DNA from: Gemmatimonadota bacterium
GTDB lineage: Bacteria; Gemmatimonadota; Gemmatimonadetes; Gemmatimonadales; Gemmatimonadaceae
Length of the DNA stretch: 35,502 nucleotides
Direction: 5' to 3'
Assembly: GCA_947471365.1 (NCBI GenBank)
Contig: CANIWQ010000017.1
Span: 1 to 35,502, forward strand
Shown here: positions 709 to 32,616 of the stretch, piece by piece
Numbering within the stretch: position 1 is the first letter of the stretch
How the letters are laid out: the number at the start of each line of letters is the position of its first letter
Position numbers and translations under genes: made by a program
Notes under the pieces: generated by a model
Told to the model about the DNA's origin: nothing
The model's input: the letters and a program-made list of their open reading frames with translations, nothing else
The model's database searches: none

Positions 709-2382
709 CTAACTGAGCCCGACGATATCCCCATCGGCGTCAATCGACATCCCCTCTGCGGCAGGCACCTTCGGGAGCCCAGGCATGGTCATAATGTCGC
801 CGGCTTTCGCGACCACGAATCCAGCCCCAGCCGATCCGTACACTTCATTGATCGTGATCCGGAAGCCCTTGGGCACGCAGAGCCGCGCCGGCTCGTCCGT
901 GAGGGAGTACTGCGTCTTGGCAATACACACCGGCGTCTCGCCGAGCCCAATCGACGTCAGATACTCAATGGCACGCTCCGCCGCCGGCGCGTAGTCCACG
1001 CCGTCGCCGCCGTACACCTTCTGCACGATCGTCTCAATCTTCTGCTTGATCGGCAACTTGGCATCGTACAACGGAGCGTAGCGGCCAGTTTTGGCGGCGA
1101 GCATCGCCAGCACTTCCTTGGCCAGCTCCTCTCCACCGGCACCGCCCTTGGCCCACACTTCCGTCAGGATCACCTTCACGCCGAGTTTGGCGGCGTAGTC
1201 TTGGACCATCTTCAGTTCCGCGTCGGTGTCGCTCAGGATGCGGTTCAGTGCCACCACAACTGGCACACCGAACTGCTGCACGTTCTTCACGTGGTGGGCG
1301 AGGTGCGGGAGTCCGCGCTCAAGCGCGCCCAGGTCTTCTGTCTTGAGATTCTTCTTGTCGAGGCCGCCCTGCATTTTGAGCGAACGAATGGTGGCCACGA
1401 GCACGGCGGCCTCGGGGTTTAATCCACCAAATCGGCACTTGATATCAAAAAACTTTTCAGCGCCGAGGTCGCTGCCGAATCCGGCTTCGGTGACCACCAC
1501 ATCGCCAAGGGCCAATGCGGTCTTCGTCGCGATGATCGAGTTGCAGCCGTGCGCAATATTTCCAAACGGCCCCGCGTGGACGAGGGCCGGGCCTCCCTCC
1601 AGTGTCTGCACGAGGTTCGGGCGAATCGCATCCTTGAGCAACATCGCCATCGCGCCAGACGCTTTGATGTCGCGTGCGCGCACGGGCTTGCGATCCTTGC
1701 CAGCGGTTGCGCCAATGATGATACGCCCGAGTCGCTCTTCAAGATCTTCACGGCTCGACGAAAGCGAGAGAATCGCCATGACTTCACTGGCGGGGATGAT
1801 CACCCAGTGCTCTTCGCGGACCACGCCGTCGCCCACGCCGCCCAGCCCGATGACCGCGTTCCGCAGCGCGCGATCGTTCATGTCGATCGTACGCGGCCAC
1901 GTGATGCGACGCGGGTCGAGGTTGGTCTCGTTCCCCTGTTGGATATGGTTATCCATCATCGCCGACAACAGCGCATGCGCGCTCGAGATCGCGTGAAAGT
2001 CACCCGTGAAATGCAGGTTGATATCCTCCATCGGAATCACCTGCGAATAGCCGCCCCCGGCGGCACCGCCCTTCACGCCGAACACGGGGCCGAGTGATGG
2101 CTCGCGAATGCAGAGCACCGCATTGGTCCCAATCCGCCGCATGGCCTGCGCCAAGCCCACGCTCACGGTGCTCTTGCCTTCGCCAGCCGGCGTCGGGCTG
2201 ATGGCCGTCACGAGTACGAGTCGTCCCTTGGCTGGCCGCTGCGACAGCTCCAGCGGCAGTTTTGCCTTGAACTTGCCGTACTGGTCAATGTCGTCGGGCG
2301 TCAGGCCGAGATCGGCCGCGACGTCCGTGATAGGGCGCGGTTTGGCAGCCTGGGCGATGTCAATATCGGTCGGAAACGTCAT
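709..2382 (-). CDS. fhs: Formate-tetrahydrofolate ligase
   Basis: This 557-residue enzyme joins formate to tetrahydrofolate with ATP, giving 10-formyl-THF for the cytosolic one-carbon pool. The length is normal for the family. The P-loop TPAGEGKST is at residues 64-72, followed by conserved blocks such as REPSLGPVFGVKGGAAGGGY and the C-terminal MTMPGLPKVPAAE. The ATG start at 2382 lies 9 bases after the fdhD stop, so it is the last gene of the formate operon. Sharing an operon with a formate dehydrogenase suggests formate is routed either to CO2 plus NADH or into C1-folate; which way the flux runs cannot be read from sequence. No folD or other Wood-Ljungdahl gene is in the window. The family call is secure. 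Confidence 0.97.
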   Translation of the reverse strand: MTFPTDIDIAQAAKPRPITDVAADLGLTPDDIDQYGKFKAKLPLELSQRPAKGRLVLVTAISPTPAGEGKSTVSVGLAQAMRRIGTNAVLCIREPSLGPVFGVKGGAAGGGYSQVIPMEDINLHFTGDFHAISSAHALLSAMMDNHIQQGNETNLDPRRITWPRTIDMNDRALRNAVIGLGGVGDGVVREEHWVIIPASEVMAILSLSSSREDLEERLGRIIIGATAGKDRKPVRARDIKASGAMAMLLKDAIRPNLVQTLEGGPALVHAGPFGNIAHGCNSIIATKTALALGDVVVTEAGFGSDLGAEKFFDIKCRFGGLNPEAAVLVATIRSLKMQGGLDKKNLKTEDLGALERGLPHLAHHVKNVQQFGVPVVVALNRILSDTDAELKMVQDYAAKLGVKVILTEVWAKGGAGGEELAKEVLAMLAAKTGRYAPLYDAKLPIKQKIETIVQKVYGGDGVDYAPAAERAIEYLTSIGLGETPVCIAKTQYSLTDEPARLCVPKGFRITINEVYGSAGAGFVVAKAGDIMTMPGLPKVPAAEGMSIDADGDIVGLS

Positions 2383-2391
2383 GGCGGGGTG

Positions 2392-3234
2392 TTAGGAAGT
2401 GAGAATGCGGGAAGGGTGACAATACACATTTGCCGACTCTCCGCGGAGGAGGCCAACGAGTGTGATGCCGGCGCCGTCGGCAAGCCGTACGGCGAGTCCG
2501 GTGGGTCGGGAGATGGCCGCGACAATCGACACGCCGGCGACCGCGGCTTTTTGTACGAGTTCGTAACTCAGGCGACTGGTGAGCAGCAAGAAACCGTTGG
2601 CCGTGTCCGTCTCAGCGCGCCACAGCGCGCCCAGGACCTTGTCGAGCGCATTGTGCCGGCCAACGTCCTCTCGGACCACGAGCAGCTCACCGTCGGCTGA
2701 CACCCATGCCGCCGCGTGGACGCTGTTGGTATCGCGGTTCAGCGTTTGCTCGGCGCCGAGCGATGCACCGGCCCGGTATAGCGCGGTATCTGGCACCTTT
2801 CGCGTGCCGTGTACAAAAGGCACGGCACGCACGGCCTCTGCAATCGCTTCGACGCCACACAACCCACAGCCGGTGCGACCGGTCAGTGAGCGCGATCGTG
2901 CTGCCAGCTGATTCCGCACAGATTCCGCGACAGCGATGCCGAGTTCGATGCCGCGGCTATGGCGCGTCACCGTGATGTCGCCAATCTCTCCACGCGTCGC
3001 GACAATCCCCTCCGACAGCGTGAAGCCAATCGCCAAATCCTCCAAATCACTTGGCGTACACATCATCACCGCGTGCGAATGGCCGGCATACACAAACGCC
3101 ACCGGCACTTCCTCCGCCAGCGTCGCGTGGCGGTCCGGCGACACGCCGTTCGCCACCAACAGGAACGCCCGGGCACTCGTCGGTGCACCGTAGCCCACGC
3201 CAGGGTCCGCGCCGAGGCCGATGTCGTTAGCCAT
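2392..3234 (-). CDS. fdhD: Formate dehydrogenase accessory sulfurtransferase FdhD
   Basis: A 280-residue protein. FdhD takes sulfur from a cysteine desulfurase and places it on the bis-MGD cofactor of formate dehydrogenase, which needs the sulfido ligand for activity. The hallmark Cys pair is present as GCGLCG (Cys123 and Cys126). Other family blocks include EEVPVAFVYAG, DLEDLAIGFTLSEGI, the VREDVGRHNALDKV segment and a SRLSYELVQKAA helix. I chose the ATG at 3234 (MANDIGLG); it overlaps the end of the iron-sulfur subunit gene by 8 bases, and an extension from 3393 would only run antisense-like Arg-rich sequence. It sits between the dehydrogenase structural genes and fhs, as expected for a dedicated maturase. 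Confidence 0.95.
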   Translation of the reverse strand: MANDIGLGADPGVGYGAPTSARAFLLVANGVSPDRHATLAEEVPVAFVYAGHSHAVMMCTPSDLEDLAIGFTLSEGIVATRGEIGDITVTRHSRGIELGIAVAESVRNQLAARSRSLTGRTGCGLCGVEAIAEAVRAVPFVHGTRKVPDTALYRAGASLGAEQTLNRDTNSVHAAAWVSADGELLVVREDVGRHNALDKVLGALWRAETDTANGFLLLTSRLSYELVQKAAVAGVSIVAAISRPTGLAVRLADGAGITLVGLLRGESANVYCHPSRILTS

Positions 3235-4207
3235 CACGCGTTGTTGCGCTGTCCGCGCTCGGGCCGGGCTGTACGTACTGCCAGCCGAAACGACCTTTGA
3301 CGCACAAGTTGCCGAGCGTGATGCTGTTTTCAAGCGGCGACGTCGCCTTGACGATCGTGTTGTCCTGCACATGCAAACTGAGCGTGCAGCCAACGCCGCA
3401 GTACGGGCAGATGGTATCCGTGGTGGTTTGTGCCTCGATGTTCCACGAACCCGCCGCGCGCATATCGAACTCGGGTTTGGCCATCAACGCGCCCGTCGGG
3501 CACACCGCAATGCAGTTGCCGCAGTACACGCACGCGGAGTCGGGAAGCGGGACCGCCATTTCGGTTGAGATGCGCGCGTTGAAGCCGCGCCCCGCCACGG
3601 CGATGGCGAAACTGTTTTGGTGATCCGCCCCACAGGCTTCCACGCACTTGTAGCAGAGGACGCACTTCGCGTAGTCGCGCACATAGAGATCGTTGTCCAC
3701 CATGACCGGTTGGCCAACCGTGGCTGCGAAATCCGGATCCGGGGCCGCGTGGTGTCCAGCGATCGCCGCATCGCGTTCGCCCGCGAGGGCGTGTGGCTTG
3801 GGCGGCCCATAGCGCTCCGGTTTACAGTCATACTCCGCCAGCAACTCCGCCATGCCCGGCGTCGTGGAGAGGTCCACACTCGAGGCGAGGAACTCGAGCA
3901 CGAGCCGGCGTGCGTGTATGACCCGCGCGGATTTCGTGTACACCACCATGCCCGCTTCCGCGGTGCGTGAGCAACTCGGCGCCAGAACGCGGGCCCCTTC
4001 AACTTCCACAACGCACAGTCGGCAGGCGTTCACCGGACGCAGCGTCTCCAGAAAACACAGTGTCGGAATCTCAATGCCGATGGTCCGGCAGGCCGCGAGA
4101 ATTGTGGTGCCTTCTTCCACCGTCACCGCGCGACCGTCGATGGTGAACGCCAGGGGTTTCTTGGGCGCTCGTGTCGGCCGCTCGATTGAAATCAGCGTCG
4201 TTGTCAT
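3227..4207 (-). CDS. Formate dehydrogenase iron-sulfur subunit (NuoG/HoxU-like part of FdhA plus the Mo-proximal [4Fe-4S] module)
   Basis: A 326-residue electron-transfer subunit matching only the N-terminal half of a standard NAD-linked FdhA. It has, in order: a [2Fe-2S] domain (Cys51, 62, 65, 79); a two-cluster ferredoxin domain (Cys182, 185, 188, 192 and Cys226, 229, 232, 236); and a CPYCGVGC...LCVKGRFGW module (Cys267, 270, 274, 302 and Lys304). In molybdenum/tungsten formate dehydrogenases that last module binds the [4Fe-4S] next to the active site and normally belongs to the catalytic chain. Here the protein stops 24 residues after Cys302. The His-Cys3 cluster motif usual between the first two domains is not visible; only Cys128 is there. 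The ATG at 4207 shares an ATGA overlap with the upstream diaphorase gene. It should carry electrons between the Mo/W site and FMN. Confidence 0.9.
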   Translation of the reverse strand: MTTTLISIERPTRAPKKPLAFTIDGRAVTVEEGTTILAACRTIGIEIPTLCFLETLRPVNACRLCVVEVEGARVLAPSCSRTAEAGMVVYTKSARVIHARRLVLEFLASSVDLSTTPGMAELLAEYDCKPERYGPPKPHALAGERDAAIAGHHAAPDPDFAATVGQPVMVDNDLYVRDYAKCVLCYKCVEACGADHQNSFAIAVAGRGFNARISTEMAVPLPDSACVYCGNCIAVCPTGALMAKPEFDMRAAGSWNIEAQTTTDTICPYCGVGCTLSLHVQDNTIVKATSPLENSITLGNLCVKGRFGWQYVQPGPSADSATTRDG

Positions 4208-6084
4208 ACCGCACCTCCCTGGAACAGCTGCAGGCGCTTGACGGCTGACTCCACCGCGGCGTACGCCGTTTGCCCGAGTCCGCAAATGGAGGCGTCTCGC
4301 ATCGCCACGCCAATCTCTTCAAGCAAGGCGAACTCCGCCTCCGCTCCGCCGCGCGTCTTCCCGCGTGCCAAACGGTGTAGCGCCTCCTCCTGCCGCACGG
4401 TCCCCACACGGCAGGGTACGCACTGTCCGCACGATTCATCGCGGAAAAACGCGGCAATGCGGAGCACGGCGGCTTCGAGGTCCTGCGAGTCATCGAACAC
4501 CATCACCACGCCGGAGCCCAAGGTGGTCTCTGCCGCTCGTGCACCTTCCAGCGACAGGGGGAAATCGGTATCCGCTGCTGGGAGGAATGTGCCCGCGGCG
4601 CCACCGAGGAGCACGGCTCGCATCCGCGGAGATGCTCCTGCGGTCTTGAGCAGCGCCTTTAGTGAGGTTCCAAATGGCGCTTCGTACACACCGGGCCGCT
4701 CCACGGCTCCACTCAAACAGAAGAGTCTCGTTCCCGTGGACTGCGTAGTGCCAATGGCGGCAAACGCCGCGCCGCCATGCAAGACAATCGGCAGCACATT
4801 CGCGAGTGTTTCGACGTTGTTGACCAGCGTCGGTTTTCCAAACACACCGGATTGCACGGGGAAGGGTGGCTTGCTCCGCGGCTCGCCGCGTTTGCCTTCA
4901 ATTGACTCAAACAACGCGGTCTCTTCGCCGCAGATGTACGCGCCCGCGCCGCGCCGAATCTCGATGTCAAATCGGAATGGCTGGCCAAGGATGTTCTCAC
5001 CCAAGAGCCCTGCCGCGCGCGCCTGTGTGATCGCTCCCTGCAGCCGTTCGTTGGCGAGCGGGTACTCGGCGCGCAAATACACAAATCCATGCTCACAACC
5101 CGTGGCGAATGCCGCGATGGTCATCGCTTCAACGATCGCGAACGGATCGCCCGTAAGCAGCACACGATCTTTGAAGGTGCCCGGTTCACTTTCGTCCGCG
5201 TTGCAGATCAGGTAATGCGGCGTCGCACGTTGCGTGCGCACTGCTTCCCACTTACGGCCGGTCGGGAAGGCCGCGCCGCCACGGCCCACGAGACGAGACG
5301 CGGTCACCTCAGCGATGACGCCCTCGGCGCCAAGTTGTAGCGCGCGCCCAAGGGCCGCGTAGCCGCCGGCGTTTCGGTATGCGGTGAGCGACGTCGGGTC
5401 TACGACCCCGACGCGCTGGAGCAATACCAGCGAGGGGTCCCCCACCTGTGGTACCACAGTGTTCGCCAGTGCGTCTGCACCAGGCGCGGCTCCGGCGAGT
5501 AAGGCGCGGGCCACATCAGCGGTCACACGCCCGATCAATCGCTCAACCGCGGGATCGCCAGCGTCTGTGACCAGCACCGCCGGCGCCTGATCGCACAAGC
5601 CGAGGCAAGGGGAATGCATCCACGCGGGCGTGTTGGCATCGAGCTGCATGTGGGTACCCGACGGCTCATGTGCCACCGCAGGACCCCCGGCGGCAACGAG
5701 AGCGGCCTCCACCTCGCGCCCACCGTTGTCGCGGCAGCCGACGTCGTCGCACACATGCAGCATGCGTCGCGGCCGGGGCGACGTGGCGAGTAGCGCGTAG
5801 AACGTCGCCACGCCCCACGCCTCAGCGGGTGGCACTTGGAGTCGCTCGCACACATAACCCAAGCCTCCCTCGCTGATCCACCCCACCCGCGCTTGGAGCG
5901 CCTGCAGAGCCGGAACGAGTTCGTGGCGCCGTTCACGCATGGCGCGCCCACCGTAGGCGAGGTGCGAGTCTCGCGCATTGACGCGAACTCCACCGTCCCA
6001 CCCCGAAGCGGGAGCTCCGAGCACCGCATCAACGGCGGCGCGTTCCGTATCGGAGGGCACGGCCTGCAGCAGACGAATATCCAT
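4204..6084 (-). CDS. fdhB: Formate dehydrogenase NAD-reducing subunit (NuoE-NuoF fusion, HoxF-like)
   Basis: A 626-residue diaphorase subunit. Residues about 40-190 are NuoE-like with a [2Fe-2S] site (Cys112, 117, 160, 164). Residues about 210-626 are NuoF-like: the FMN loop GRGGAAFPTGRKWE (268-280), the NAD-binding GAGAYICGEETAL (379-391), and a [4Fe-4S] site in SCGQCVPCR (Cys552, 555, 558) with Cys601. The expected role is to pass electrons from the iron-sulfur subunit to NAD+. The ATG at 6084 forms a TGATG overlap with the catalytic gene; a longer reading to 6132 adds an Arg-rich tail encoded inside that gene. The E-F fusion is like HoxF of NAD-linked hydrogenases, but no hydrogenase genes are present and the neighbours are formate genes. 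Confidence 0.94.
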   Translation of the reverse strand: MDIRLLQAVPSDTERAAVDAVLGAPASGWDGGVRVNARDSHLAYGGRAMRERRHELVPALQALQARVGWISEGGLGYVCERLQVPPAEAWGVATFYALLATSPRPRRMLHVCDDVGCRDNGGREVEAALVAAGGPAVAHEPSGTHMQLDANTPAWMHSPCLGLCDQAPAVLVTDAGDPAVERLIGRVTADVARALLAGAAPGADALANTVVPQVGDPSLVLLQRVGVVDPTSLTAYRNAGGYAALGRALQLGAEGVIAEVTASRLVGRGGAAFPTGRKWEAVRTQRATPHYLICNADESEPGTFKDRVLLTGDPFAIVEAMTIAAFATGCEHGFVYLRAEYPLANERLQGAITQARAAGLLGENILGQPFRFDIEIRRGAGAYICGEETALFESIEGKRGEPRSKPPFPVQSGVFGKPTLVNNVETLANVLPIVLHGGAAFAAIGTTQSTGTRLFCLSGAVERPGVYEAPFGTSLKALLKTAGASPRMRAVLLGGAAGTFLPAADTDFPLSLEGARAAETTLGSGVVMVFDDSQDLEAAVLRIAAFFRDESCGQCVPCRVGTVRQEEALHRLARGKTRGGAEAEFALLEEIGVAMRDASICGLGQTAYAAVESAVKRLQLFQGGAV

Positions 6085-8015
6085 CAGCGCGCGCCGACGG
6101 AAGCGACGAGTGCTTCGATGCGGACCGCGCACGCTTTGAACTCCGCGGTGCCGGACTTGGGGTCGTATTGGTCGTTGGTCAGCACGTTGGTGTCAACGCT
6201 ATCTGGAAAATGGAATGTCATAAACACGAGGCCAGCGCGCAGCGCGCGATCGATCCGTACTGGCGCGGTGACCTCGCCGCGTCGCGAACTCACGCGCGCG
6301 AGATCCCCATCCGCACACCCGAGCATCACCGCATCTTCGGGTGACATATCAACCGTTTCGCCGTAGTGCAGTGGCGACGCGTATCCGCCCGTCTGTACAC
6401 CGGTGTTGTAGGACTCGAGGCGACGGCCAGTGGTGAGCAAAAACGGATACGCCGCATCGGGCTGTTCGGCGGGGCCGGCATGCTCAACCACGGAGAACGG
6501 GGCCGGGCGTCCGCGTACCGGGGTCTCCCAGAGCCGTCCGTGCAGAAACGTTTCGCCTGCGTGCGATTCGTCTGGGCAGGGCCACTGAATGCCGCCCAAC
6601 GATTCGAGACGCGCATAGCTCATGCCGCCAGCGAAAGCAGGCGCCACTGTGCGGAACTCATTCCAGAGCTCCTCGGCGGTCGGATTGCCGAGATCGGTAC
6701 CGAGTCGTCGCGCGAGCTCCGCGAGAATCCAGAGTTCGTCGCGCGCCCCCGCTGGCGGTTCTTTTGCTTTGCGCACACGCTGGACGCGGCGCTCGCTGTT
6801 GGTGACGGTCCCATCCGCTTCGCACCAACTCGCCGTGGCTGGCAGCACGACGTGCGCCAACTGCGCCGTCTTCGTGAGAAAGATCTCTTGTACCACAAGG
6901 TGGTCAAGGCCGCCCAGGAGCCGCGCGACTTTGTTCCCATCCGCGTCGCTCTGCACCGGATTCTCACCAGCGCACAGCAGCGCGGTGATCTTGCCGTGCT
7001 CCATCGCGTGCAGCATCTCGGTGAGGTTCTTGCCGTACGTCGGCTGAATCGGCACACCCCAGTGACGTTCAAAGGCGGCGCGCACCGCCGGGTCGAGAAT
7101 GTCCTGAAAGCCGGGCAGGCGATTGGGAATCGCACCCATGTCGCCGCCGCCCTGCACATTGTTCTGCCCACGCAACGGGTTACAGCCGCAGGCCCAACGA
7201 CCGACATGACCGGTGAGCAGGCAGAGATTGATCAGCGACAGCACGTTGTCGACGGCGTTGTGATGCTCGGTAATGCCGAGCGTCCAACAGATCATCGCCT
7301 TGTCCGCTGTGGCGAAGGTGTGCGCGGCTTCGCGAATCGCGGCGGCGGGAATCCCGGTGAGCTGTTCACCCACGTCGAGCGTGTACGGTTCGACCGCCGC
7401 GCGGTACACGTCGAAGCCCGTCGTCCCATTCGCAATGAACGCTGCGTGCGCCAACCCCGCATGAATAATTTCGCGCGCCATCGTATTCGACAGCGCCACG
7501 TCGGACCCCACGTTGAGCCCCATCCACACGTCCGCCCACTTGGCAGAATCGGTGCGGCGCGGATCCATCACGTAGAGGCGCGTCCCATTGCGCACGCCTT
7601 TCAGCAGATGATGAAACCAAATCGGGTGCGCGGCGCGCGCGTTCGATCCCCAGAGAAAGACGACGTCCGTTTCTTCCACTTCCGCGTACGAGTTGGTGCC
7701 GCCACCCGCTCCAAACACCGTCGCCAGACCGACGACGCTAGGGGCGTGTCACGTTCGATTACAACTGTCGATGTTGTTGGTCTTGAACACCAGTCGCGCG
7801 AGCTTGCCCGCGAGGAAATTCATTTCGTTCGTCGACTTGGAGCAGCTGAAAATGCCCAAGGCGTTGGGGCCGCCACGATCGAGGTTGCGGCGGAAACCCG
7901 CCGCCGCCGCGTCCAGCGCTTCGTCCCACGTCGCCGAGCGCAACACGCCGCCATCGCGAACCAAAGGCGTCGTCAGGCGCTGATAGGCGCCAGCAGGAGC
8001 ATTGTGACGTTTCAT
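6084..8015 (-). CDS. fdhA: Formate dehydrogenase catalytic subunit, selenocysteine-containing (in-frame UGA)
   Basis: This is read as one 643-residue protein across an in-frame UGA at 7749-7751 (residue 89). The junction reads NNIDSCNRT-U-HAPSVVGLATVFG. This is the family's active-site segment, where Sec or Cys ligates Mo/W and the next His (here His90) is catalytic. The other active-site Arg is in NPLRGQNNVQGG (Arg282). Residues 550-643 form the C-terminal dinucleotide-binding domain. It oxidises formate to CO2 at a bis-MGD cofactor, probably in the cytosol because no Tat signal is visible. It starts MKRHNAP and lacks the N-terminal [4Fe-4S] module, which is in the gene at 3227-4207. A gene caller that stops at UGA would report 7749-8015 and 6084-7718 as separate fragments. 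The alternative is a nonsense mutation of a Cys codon; the hairpin after UGA and the intact operon argue against it. Confidence 0.88.
7707..7751 (-). promoter_or_regulatory. Selenocysteine UGA codon and bacterial SECIS-like hairpin
   Basis: UGA is at 7751-7749. Beginning 11 bases later on the minus strand, CGUCGUC (7737-7731) pairs over 7 bp (one U-G) with GGCGACG (7725-7719) around the loop GGUCU (7730-7726). A lower stem CGCCCC (7746-7741) pairs with GGAGCG (7712-7707), with one C-A mismatch. Loop GGUCU and an 18-base UGA-to-loop distance match what I recall of the E. coli fdhF SECIS bound by SelB. Part of this match is forced by the conserved Gly-Leu codons. Confidence 0.75.
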
Positions 8016-8199: not shown

Positions 8200-9360
8200 A
8201 TGCCAAATGCCCGCCGCACCCTGACGTTCTCCGAGTCGGTCATTCGCGAAATGACCCGTGTCGCTAATCAATACGGCGCCGTGAACCTCTCCCAAGGGTT
8301 TCCTGACTTTCCCATGCCAGAGGAAATGAAGGAAGCCGCCTGCGACGCCATCCGTCGCGACTTCAACCAATACGCCACCACGTGGGGCACCAAAACGCTC
8401 CGCGACGCCATCGCGGGGAAGTACCTCACGCGCTACGGCATGACGGTGGATCCGGACGCTGAGATCACGGTGGCCTGCGGCGGAACAGAGGCGATGGCGT
8501 CGGTGTTTCTGGCGCTTATCGATCCGGGCGACGAAGTGATCATTTTTGAGCCGTTCTACGAGAACTACGGCCCCGACGCGATCCTCAGCGACGCAAAGCC
8601 GGTGTTTGTCCCGTTGACCGTCCCAGACTGGAAACTCGACATTGACGCGTTGAAGGCGGCCGTCACGCCGCGGACGCGCGCCCTGATCCTCAACTCGCCG
8701 CATAATCCCACGGGACATGTGTTCGACCGTGCGGAACTTGAGGCGATTGCCGAAGTGTGCATCGCCCATGACATCATCGTGATCACGGACGATCCCTACG
8801 AATACATCCTGTTCGAAGGGACGCACATTCCCATCGCCACGCTGCCGGGGATGCGCGAACGCACGGTGACCACGTCGAGTCTGTCCAAGACCTTCAGCAT
8901 CACCGGCTGGCGCCTCGGCTATGCGATTGCCAGCCCCGAGCGCTCCGGCGCCATTCGGAAAGTGCACGATTTCCTCACGGTGGGCGCACCGGCTCCGCTA
9001 CAGCAAGCGGCGGCCGTTGGCTACGCATTCCCGGATTCGTACTACCAAAAACTCTCCGACGATTACAAGGCGCGTCGCGAGTTCTTGGCGGGCCCGCTCC
9101 GCGACGCGGGGTTCCGTTTTACAAATCCCAATGGCGCGTATTACTTCTTCGCCGATTTCTCAGCGTTGAGTTCGCAGGACGACGTGACCTTCGCCAAGTG
9201 GATGACGAAGGAAGTCGGCGTGGCAACGGTCCCCGGGTCGAGCTTCTATCGCCCCGGCGCGCCGGAGGGCAAGCGTTTTGTGCGGTTCGCGTTCTGCAAG
9301 AAGCGTGAAACGCTGGAAGCGGCCGTTGAACGGTTGGCGAAGCTTAAGTCGTTGTTGTAG
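8200..9360 (+). CDS. Class I/II pyridoxal-phosphate aminotransferase (YbdL/kynurenine-aminotransferase-like)
   Basis: A 386-residue fold-type I aminotransferase. The PLP lysine is Lys230 in SSLSKTFSITGWRLGY, with NSPHNPTG upstream and DDPYEY between them. The start region FSESVIREMTRVANQYGAVNLSQGFPDF resembles methionine/kynurenine/aspartate aminotransferases of the YbdL type; the substrate cannot be fixed from sequence. I use the ATG at 8200; the frame stays open to 8059 but that stretch is not family-like. There is a hairpin at 8167-8182 just upstream. It is transcribed divergently from the formate operon with 184 bases between, and its 3' end overlaps the convergent DUF983 gene by 17 bases. 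Confidence 0.9.
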   Translation: MPNARRTLTFSESVIREMTRVANQYGAVNLSQGFPDFPMPEEMKEAACDAIRRDFNQYATTWGTKTLRDAIAGKYLTRYGMTVDPDAEITVACGGTEAMASVFLALIDPGDEVIIFEPFYENYGPDAILSDAKPVFVPLTVPDWKLDIDALKAAVTPRTRALILNSPHNPTGHVFDRAELEAIAEVCIAHDIIVITDDPYEYILFEGTHIPIATLPGMRERTVTTSSLSKTFSITGWRLGYAIASPERSGAIRKVHDFLTVGAPAPLQQAAAVGYAFPDSYYQKLSDDYKARREFLAGPLRDAGFRFTNPNGAYYFFADFSALSSQDDVTFAKWMTKEVGVATVPGSSFYRPGAPEGKRFVRFAFCKKRETLEAAVERLAKLKSLL

Positions 9361-31155: not shown

Positions 31156-31652
31156 GCACGCGTGTCGCGATCGTCGACGCGGCCATCGATCCGGCGGCGC
31201 TCCTCGCCGAAGTCGCGGCCACCGGTATTGGCGCCACGACCTTGTTCGTCGGTACCGTGCGTGATGTGAACGAGGGGCGCGTCGTGACCGGCATTGAGTA
31301 TTCGGCGTACGTCCCAATGGCACAGGCCGAGTTGCAGCGAATTGTGAGTGAAGCGGTCGCGCTGTTTGCGTCGCCGGCCATCGTCGTGGTGCATCGCATT
31401 GGTGCGTTGGGACTGGGCGAGGCGAGCGTGGCTGCCGTCACGGCGCACGCGCATCGTGGTAGCGCGCTGGACGCCATGCGCTACGTGGTCGAGCAACTCA
31501 AGGCGCGTGTGCCGATTTGGAAGCGCGAGTTGTACGCGGATGGCACGCGCGAGTGGGTGAATGCCGCGAGCGCGCTGGCCGCCGCGGCACGGGGATCCAC
31601 CGACGCACCGTCGCACACGGTGCCACCGCACACGAGCACGGCACATGCTTGA
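31152..31652 (+). CDS. moaE: Molybdopterin synthase large subunit (MoaE)
   Basis: A 166-residue subunit converting cPMP to molybdopterin with MoaD. Typical blocks are GATTLFVGTVRDVNEGR, VVTGIEYSAYVPMAQ, HRIGALGLGEASV and LKARVPIWKREL, which includes the active-site lysines. The last 25 residues are a variable Ala/Thr/His tail, and the moaA ATG lies within it (8-base overlap). Confidence 0.93.
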   Translation: MSTRVAIVDAAIDPAALLAEVAATGIGATTLFVGTVRDVNEGRVVTGIEYSAYVPMAQAELQRIVSEAVALFASPAIVVVHRIGALGLGEASVAAVTAHAHRGSALDAMRYVVEQLKARVPIWKRELYADGTREWVNAASALAAAARGSTDAPSHTVPPHTSTAHA

Positions 31653-32616
31653 TCAATACGGGCGCAGCATTGAGTACCTCCGAATTTCCGTCACCGATCG
31701 CTGCAACTTCCGGTGCGTCTACTGCATGCCGGAGCACGGCCTCGCCTGGTTGCCGAAGGCCGACATTCTGAGCTACGAAGAGATCGCCGAGGTGGCGCGG
31801 CAGTTAGCGCCATTGGGGCTCAAGCGACTTCGGATTACCGGTGGAGAGCCCACCATCCGTCCGGAACTCTCGCGACTCATTCGCCAGCTGAAGGCAATTC
31901 CGGGTATCGAGGATATTGCGCTCAGCACCAACGGGGTAAAGCTCGTGGAGATGGCGCCGGCGTTGCGTGAGGCGGGGCTCGACCGCGTGAACCTCTCCGC
32001 GGACAGTCTCCGCCCGGAGCGCATTGCGGCGATTGCTCGGCGCTCGATGCCGTTCAGTCCCGTGCTGTCCGCGAGTGCCGCACAGGCCGCTGGCCTCTCG
32101 CCGGTCAAGATTAATGTGGTCGTCATGCGCGGCATCAACGACGACGAGATTGAAGACTTTGCGCGACTCACAATCGAGCATCCGTTTCATGTGCGATTTA
32201 TTGAGCTGATGCCGGTTGGGGAGATGGCCGACCTCACGTGGGAGCACGTCATTCCGAGCGAGGAGGTGCTACGGCGCGTCAGTGCGCTGGGCACGCTGTC
32301 GGCGGCGGACGGGCCCGCGCGGGGCAATGGGCCGGCGACCTACTACCGGCTCGCGGGCGCTGCGGGGTCGATCGGCGTGATCACGCCGATGAGCCACACC
32401 TACTGCGGCACCTGTAATCGCGTGCGGCTCACGGCCGATGGCCGACTGCGCACCTGTCTGTTCGGCGACCACGAAGTGAATCTGCGTGAGCCGCTCCGGG
32501 CGGGTACGGCATTGGCGCCGCTCTTTGCCCAAGCGCTGGCTGAGAAGCCCAAAGAACATCACCTCCTGCAAATGCAAGTCGGCGGCCTCAAGGCGCTGTC
32601 GCAGACCGGCGGTTAG
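31645..32616 (+). CDS. moaA: GTP 3',8-cyclase MoaA (radical SAM)
   Basis: A 323-residue enzyme, first step of Moco synthesis (GTP to 3',8-cyclo-H2GTP). The radical-SAM cluster is CNFRCVYC (Cys20, 24, 27). The C-terminal second [4Fe-4S] site is in HTYCGTCNRVRLTADGRLRTCLFG. It ends in the functionally needed Gly-Gly (SQTGG). ATG at 31645 fits the family N-terminus; earlier in-frame sequence back to 31561 belongs to moaE. moaC and the MobA/MoeA steps are not in the window. Confidence 0.96.
   Translation: MLDQYGRSIEYLRISVTDRCNFRCVYCMPEHGLAWLPKADILSYEEIAEVARQLAPLGLKRLRITGGEPTIRPELSRLIRQLKAIPGIEDIALSTNGVKLVEMAPALREAGLDRVNLSADSLRPERIAAIARRSMPFSPVLSASAAQAAGLSPVKINVVVMRGINDDEIEDFARLTIEHPFHVRFIELMPVGEMADLTWEHVIPSEEVLRRVSALGTLSAADGPARGNGPATYYRLAGAAGSIGVITPMSHTYCGTCNRVRLTADGRLRTCLFGDHEVNLREPLRAGTALAPLFAQALAEKPKEHHLLQMQVGGLKALSQTGG

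Follow-up and report, generated by a model that had tools for sequence, protein, structure and literature searches.

In E. coli formate dehydrogenase (FDH) H, the catalytic gene fdhF carries a UGA codon at its active-site position and, at a spacing of 18 nt, the sequence GGUCU in the loop of a SECIS hairpin that has a bulged U and the loop AGGUCU; in the protein, an LCxKG motif has its Lys placed between the [4Fe-4S] cluster and the pterin. The NAD-dependent FDH of R. capsulatus uses Cys and no selenocysteine (Sec), and has separate NuoE- and NuoF-like subunits. Sec-containing FdhA is, together with SelD, the most widespread bacterial selenoprotein (PMC5029168, PMC1794560), and a current model of bacterial SECIS elements places the apical loop 16-37 nt from the UGA, with a minimum free energy of -7.5 kcal/mol or lower (PMC13188914). 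In Actinomycetospora chiangmaiensis DSM 45062, the cytoplasmic, NAD-dependent FDH3 consists of FdhA3, FdhB3 and FdhC3 (640, 614 and 316 aa), all three of which were detected by proteomics, and formate accumulated in this organism unless selenite was added (PMC7176365). That effect is not assigned to FDH3 alone, because the strain has other Sec-FDHs.

Here, we analyze a window of 35,502 nt from a Gemmatimonadota bacterium (Gemmatimonadaceae; GCA_947471365.1, contig CANIWQ010000017.1, positions 1-35,502) that encodes, with a probability of roughly 95% by our estimate from sequence, the catalytic subunit (FdhA-cat) of a cytoplasmic NAD-linked Sec FDH, with SECIS-guided Sec at codon 89 and an alpha subunit split between FdhA-cat and a second protein, FdhN (Table 1). 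The first-pass annotation had claimed that two open reading frames (ORFs), 7749-8015 and 6084-7718, are in phase and separated by one UGA, located at the FDH active-site position between SCNRT and HAPSVVG. Both points are borne out. The minus-strand frame from 8015 to 6084 is continuous, with a single internal TGA at codon 89 (7751-7749) and then the terminal TGA; the apparent gap between the two ORFs arises because ORF listing needs a start codon after a stop. Upstream of the ATG at 8015, the frame is shut by a stop close by. Codon 89, in the context NNIDSCNRT-U-HAPSVVGLATVFG (SCNRT-U-HAPSVVG), is that of the Mo/W ligand, and its UGA is almost certainly read as Sec.

Table 1. Features of the FDH locus and of a second predicted selenoprotein gene. 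Positions refer to the window except where a contig (C58) is named.
Feature	Position	Strand	Basis
fdhA-cat, predicted catalytic molybdopterin subunit of FDH, 643 aa	6084..8015	-	frame; PF00384, PF01568; TIGR01591
UGA codon, predicted to be read as Sec, Mo/W ligand position, followed by His	7749..7751	-	TGA in 42/42 close homologues
Putative bacterial SECIS hairpin with a stem of 7 bp, 6 of them conserved, and the loop GGUCU (7730-7726)	7719..7737	-	fold, conservation, covariation
fdhB, fused NuoE/NuoF-like subunit (2Fe-2S, FMN/NADH site, 4Fe-4S), 626 aa	4204..6084	-	domain and structure matches
fdhN, N-terminal Fe-S part of the alpha subunit (Fer2_4, Fer4, Molybdop_Fe4S4), 326 aa	3227..4207	-	aligns to 6tg9_A 22-303
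fdhD, accessory sulfurtransferase for FDH	2392..3393	-	TIGR00129, 204.5 bits (cut-off 140.9)
fhs, formate--tetrahydrofolate ligase, closing the conserved cluster	709..2382	-	domain matches; conserved gene order
SelW/Rdx-like predicted selenoprotein, 78 aa, CxxU, own GGUCU SECIS	C58:13629-13862 (L175 from 1471; L189)	+	SECIS model; PF10262

In FdhA-cat, the Pfam domain Molybdopterin (PF00384) runs across the TGA and is accompanied by Molydop_binding (PF01568). The best NCBIfam model is FDH alpha, TIGR01591, which is matched over positions 51-672; the chain alone scores 627.1 bits and falls short of the 666.25-bit cut-off, since it lacks positions 1-50, which are encoded elsewhere. The protein starts at the equivalent of residue 51 of this model, without the Molybdop_Fe4S4 domain, and positions 1-49 are found on FdhN (47.0 bits). 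The closest solved structures are FdhF of the HDCR, the methanogen enzymes, E. coli FdhH and R. capsulatus FDH. FdhA-cat and FdhN align to residues 307-933 and 22-303, respectively, of chain A of the latter (PDB 6TG9) and thus together cover a single known subunit, with the break between its Fe-S part and its catalytic domain. The active-site features are present, namely U89-H90 and a downstream Arg, R282 of LRGQNN. As in R. capsulatus-type NAD-dependent FDHs, a NuoEF-like subunit and a complex-I-like Fe-S wire stand beside alpha. Elsewhere in the same window as this molybdoenzyme, a MoaA-like molybdenum cofactor biosynthesis gene (PF06463, Radical_SAM) is present at 31561-32616 on the plus strand.

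The gene for the NuoEF-like subunit sits between the two parts of alpha, and fdhD and fhs come next. The ATG of fdhB (6084) overlaps the stop of fdhA-cat and that of fdhN (4207) overlaps the stop of fdhB, although the longest ORFs of fdhB and fdhN begin further upstream, at GTG 6132 and TTG 4285, respectively; the overlaps suggest coupled translation of the three genes. The order fdhA-cat, nuoEF, fdhN recurs in nearly all split-type loci with enough flanking sequence, across several phyla, and is accompanied by fdhD and fhs in many. The sequence points to a mechanism in which SelB, with Sec-tRNA(UCA), would bind the GGUCU-loop hairpin downstream of the UGA and Sec would be inserted at codon 89, where it would be a ligand of Mo (or W), next to two conserved residues, His90 and Arg282. 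FdhN, a separate protein carrying the [4Fe-4S] domain of the usual alpha N terminus together with a complex-I-like [2Fe-2S]/[4Fe-4S] wire, would dock on FdhA-cat and relay electrons from Mo to NAD+ by way of the fused NuoEF-like subunit; the direction of the reaction and the cofactor specificity are likewise predictions. Since the LCVKG motif is located on FdhN, the first electron step from the Mo site would cross a subunit boundary.

The nearest described enzyme, by subunit sizes, enzyme class and the TGA homologues in its family, is FDH3 of A. chiangmaiensis (PMC7176365). Both enzymes have three cytoplasmic subunits, Sec in alpha and a link to NAD (here predicted from the genes), and the chains are similar in size (643, 626 and 326 aa against 640, 614 and 316 aa). 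The present locus belongs to another phylum and has fdhD and fhs next in the cluster. In the family of Amycolatopsis, 10 of the 18 genomes with the split type have TGA, and these genes are 59-63% identical to the one described here. Actinomycetospora belongs to this family. R. capsulatus FDH has the same domain inventory and a NuoF-like subunit homologous to the fdhB product, but its alpha is one polypeptide, whereas here FdhN and FdhA-cat are separate ORFs with fdhB between them. E. coli FdhF also keeps the [4Fe-4S] domain in the catalytic chain. On comparison with the folded fdhF sequence, the position of the UGA, the GGUCU in the loop and the 18-nt spacing are shared, but in the present hairpin GGUCU sits on a straight stem. 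Other Gemmatimonadota have a long-type Sec FdhA (L084-L093) with the TGA at the same position, a GGTCTG loop and the same 6-bp stem; these proteins are 41-43% identical to FdhA-cat, and their alpha is fused, in frames of about 900 aa or more that include the FdhN part upstream, with a NuoF-like gene upstream. TAG codons inside some long homologues raised the possibility of UAG-encoded Sec, which was rejected, as codon 89 specifies Cys in the three cases read (G149, G205 and G353); for two of them, G149 and G205, the TAG lies near the C-terminal end and was read as an ordinary terminator.

Among 395 Gemmatimonadota genomes, all 42 with a close homologue covering the codon (own genome included; 63-100% identity) have exactly one TGA, located at the same residue in all loci read, and the nearest genome, at 96% identity, shows unbroken protein conservation past it. 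The first-pass annotation held that its reading would fall if close relatives had a clear Cys codon and this strain alone had UGA; no close relative has Cys. More broadly, split-type relatives were found in Gemmatimonadota, Actinomycetota, Chloroflexota, Acidobacteriota, Planctomycetota, Armatimonadota and Myxococcota (genome_contigs), and codon 89 is TGA in 110 split-type loci of several phyla and TGC or TGT in 20. SelA was detected in 23 of 24 split-type genomes with TGA versus 7 of 20 with Cys (Fisher p 1.7e-5). Within Gemmatimonadota, the enrichment (40 of the 42 TGA genomes versus 287 of 395 overall; hypergeometric p 1e-4) gives only modest support because the base rate is high. The TGA genomes lacking a SelA match (G210 and G038 among the 42, and that of L171 among the 24) are plausibly incomplete. 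Seven genomes combine a Cys-type gene with SelA (L105, L106, L110, L115, L145, L160 and L170) and, SelA still being present, may decode Sec for other proteins.

The tree places all 20 split-type Cys sequences in one Actinomycetota group with the TGA gene of Allonocardiopsis, a pattern that reads as a single loss of Sec, on a tree that gives neither root nor direction. Three loci on contigs titled Bifidobacterium breve (L134, L150 and L153) group tightly with Acidimicrobiia-like sequences, and their titles look wrong. One contig of a metagenome-assembled genome titled Planctomycetota (L099) lies inside the Gemmatimonadota part of the tree, by recent transfer or mis-binning.

The hairpin with the loop GGUCU, said in the first-pass annotation to start 11 bases after the UGA as in bacterial SECIS elements, folds as described. 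Its arms are 7737-7731 and 7725-7719, the distance from the UGA to the loop is 18 nt and the fold energy is -11.7 kcal/mol (z -2.1); with a 5-nt loop and a 6-7-bp stem, it agrees with the bacterial SECIS model of PMC13188914 in each of its four constraints. Scanning the window and L001 against Rfam yielded no match, and the fold energy of a 48-nt stretch had no distinguishing power (z -1.0). Fold energy alone is weak evidence for the hairpin, but its conservation is far beyond chance. Six pairs of the stem (7736-7731 with 7725-7720) form in 100% of 56 distinct sequences. Compensatory change is seen at columns 18/30, where G-C and U-A occur in place of C-G, and the U-G at columns 20/28 is replaced by C-G and U-A. 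In 500 shuffles, neither the observed pairing score nor the covariation score was ever reached, while 6 reached the count of pairs changed on both sides and 4 that of further pair types. The C-G/G-C swaps fall at the third positions of the Val94 and Ala98 codons and are thus not required by the protein. Sliding the partner by +3 still gives many pairs, 84.8% as against 100%. An alternative register of the stem was rejected, being broken by Actinobacterial sequences.

The earlier annotation had also cautioned that the need to encode Gly-Leu explains part of the loop match. The protein does need Gly-Leu, but this fails to account for the choice of codon: Gly96 is GGT in 92 of 92 Sec genes, whereas the 20 Cys genes use GGG (12), GGC (6), GGT (1) and GGA (1), and many of them have broken stem pairs. 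Across 264 conserved codon columns in 93 Sec genes, Gly96 has the lowest codon entropy; that of the other 35 conserved Gly columns is at least 0.89, and GGT makes up 15% of Gly codons in Sec genes. One locus (L071 of G317, 8375-8416, plus strand) has Ser-Leu, as AGT-TTG, in the loop, giving AGUUU instead of GGUCU, with a G still within the first two loop positions and the stem intact. The window hairpin scores 67.2 bits with a covariance model of the family, a value that is not independent, as the window sequence was among those used to build the model. Matches of 17-39 bits on split-type Cys genes were rejected as SECIS elements and reflect shared coding sequence.

The window's own genome (G000; 3.31 Mb, 222 contigs, 98.8% complete) has the complete Sec-decoding trait. 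SelA (444.8 bits, cut-off 22.8), SelB (a 650-aa frame; 299.2 bits, or 334.1 with the C-terminal match, cut-off 242.25), SelD (321.5 bits, cut-off 125) and tRNA-Sec (selC; 77.7 bits, gathering score 47), with the anticodon tca (UCA) by ARAGORN, all exceed curated cut-offs. The four components that the host was expected to have are thus present, and the objection that it lacks Sec machinery fails. The selD gene is broken over two contig ends, C101:6-722 and C42:22421-22756 (L018, L019), that have the peptide LVKSMTTLNATASRAAVALDLRCATDVTGFGLLGHASHIARASNVT in common, and tRNA-Sec adjoins the C-terminal part on C42. Judging from its N-terminal motif, FARCAGCAAK, SelD is apparently a Cys-type protein. 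This genome almost certainly decodes UGA as Sec, and most of the phylum sampled (SelA in 287 of 395 genomes) probably does so too.

When the family SECIS model was run over the own genome, one more match stood above noise (C58:13659-13703, 26.5 bits, E 0.002). It lies in a short gene whose product, MQIVIEYCIVUHYEPRAVGLAAAIREHFPAA..., matches the Rdx family PF10262 with 66.2 bits (cut-off 22.6). Among bacterial selenoproteins, those of the SelW-like CXXU type form a known family (PMC1088965). A search of 99 genomes of the family gave 57 matches to the Rdx/SelW-like protein, every one with an internal TGA, and the homologues read have the loop GGTCTGG.

These data bear on three other readings of the locus. 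TGA is a stop in the standard code and the window comes from a draft genome of 222 contigs, so that the gene might be suspected to be a pseudogene or to contain a nonsense mutation or an assembly error; with the same TGA shared by all close homologues and present at 110 loci from several phyla, a protein conserved unbroken beyond it and a downstream hairpin under selective maintenance, a real stop is vanishingly improbable. It is also highly improbable that UGA is read as Cys or Trp, by a reassigned code or plain readthrough, without selenium. Cys would serve at the same position, and Cys homologues exist, but TGA terminates 9 of the 16 window ORFs looked at, fdhA-cat included, the genome has the whole Sec machinery, the constraint on GGT and the stem is gone where the codon is Cys, and the SECIS model leads to a second selenoprotein with CxxU.

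A Sec molybdopterin oxidoreductase acting on a substrate other than formate, for instance with a nitrate-reductase-like activity, is very unlikely. The sub-threshold TIGR01591 score of the catalytic chain alone would fit such an enzyme, and there are matches to NasC and NasA models as well (407.7 and 357.2 bits), but the FDH model is well ahead (627 versus 408 bits), the best structures are HDCR FdhF, FdhH and R. capsulatus FDH, and fdhD and the formate-tetrahydrofolate ligase gene are adjacent. The favored reading remains a Sec FDH, an enzyme of a known kind, with a conserved SECIS in a bacterium predicted to decode Sec.

Two recent reviews (PMC13397495, PMC13188914) do not mention Gemmatimonadota, and in the literature searched we found no paper on Sec use in this phylum or on the FDH split as such, an absence that is not proof of novelty. 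fdhA-cat joins the known kind of Sec FDH, and the feature that distinguishes it is the large subunit encoded by separate genes. Annotation halting at TGA would shorten both fdhA-cat and the small SelW-like protein. The Cys clade of Actinomycetota shows the RNA constraint to be absent where Sec is unused. It seems reasonably likely that split Sec NAD-linked FDHs (fdhA-cat/nuoEF/fdhN) form an old, widespread and structurally uncharacterized class in Gemmatimonadota, Actinomycetota, Chloroflexota, Acidobacteriota and Planctomycetota, with the catalytic gene also in Armatimonadota and Myxococcota, in which the [4Fe-4S] cluster next to Mo would come from a different polypeptide and the first electron-transfer step would run across a subunit boundary. 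The split alpha subunit is the part that deserves a structural biologist's attention, as a natural test of whether the [4Fe-4S] domain of an FDH can work as a separate docking protein.
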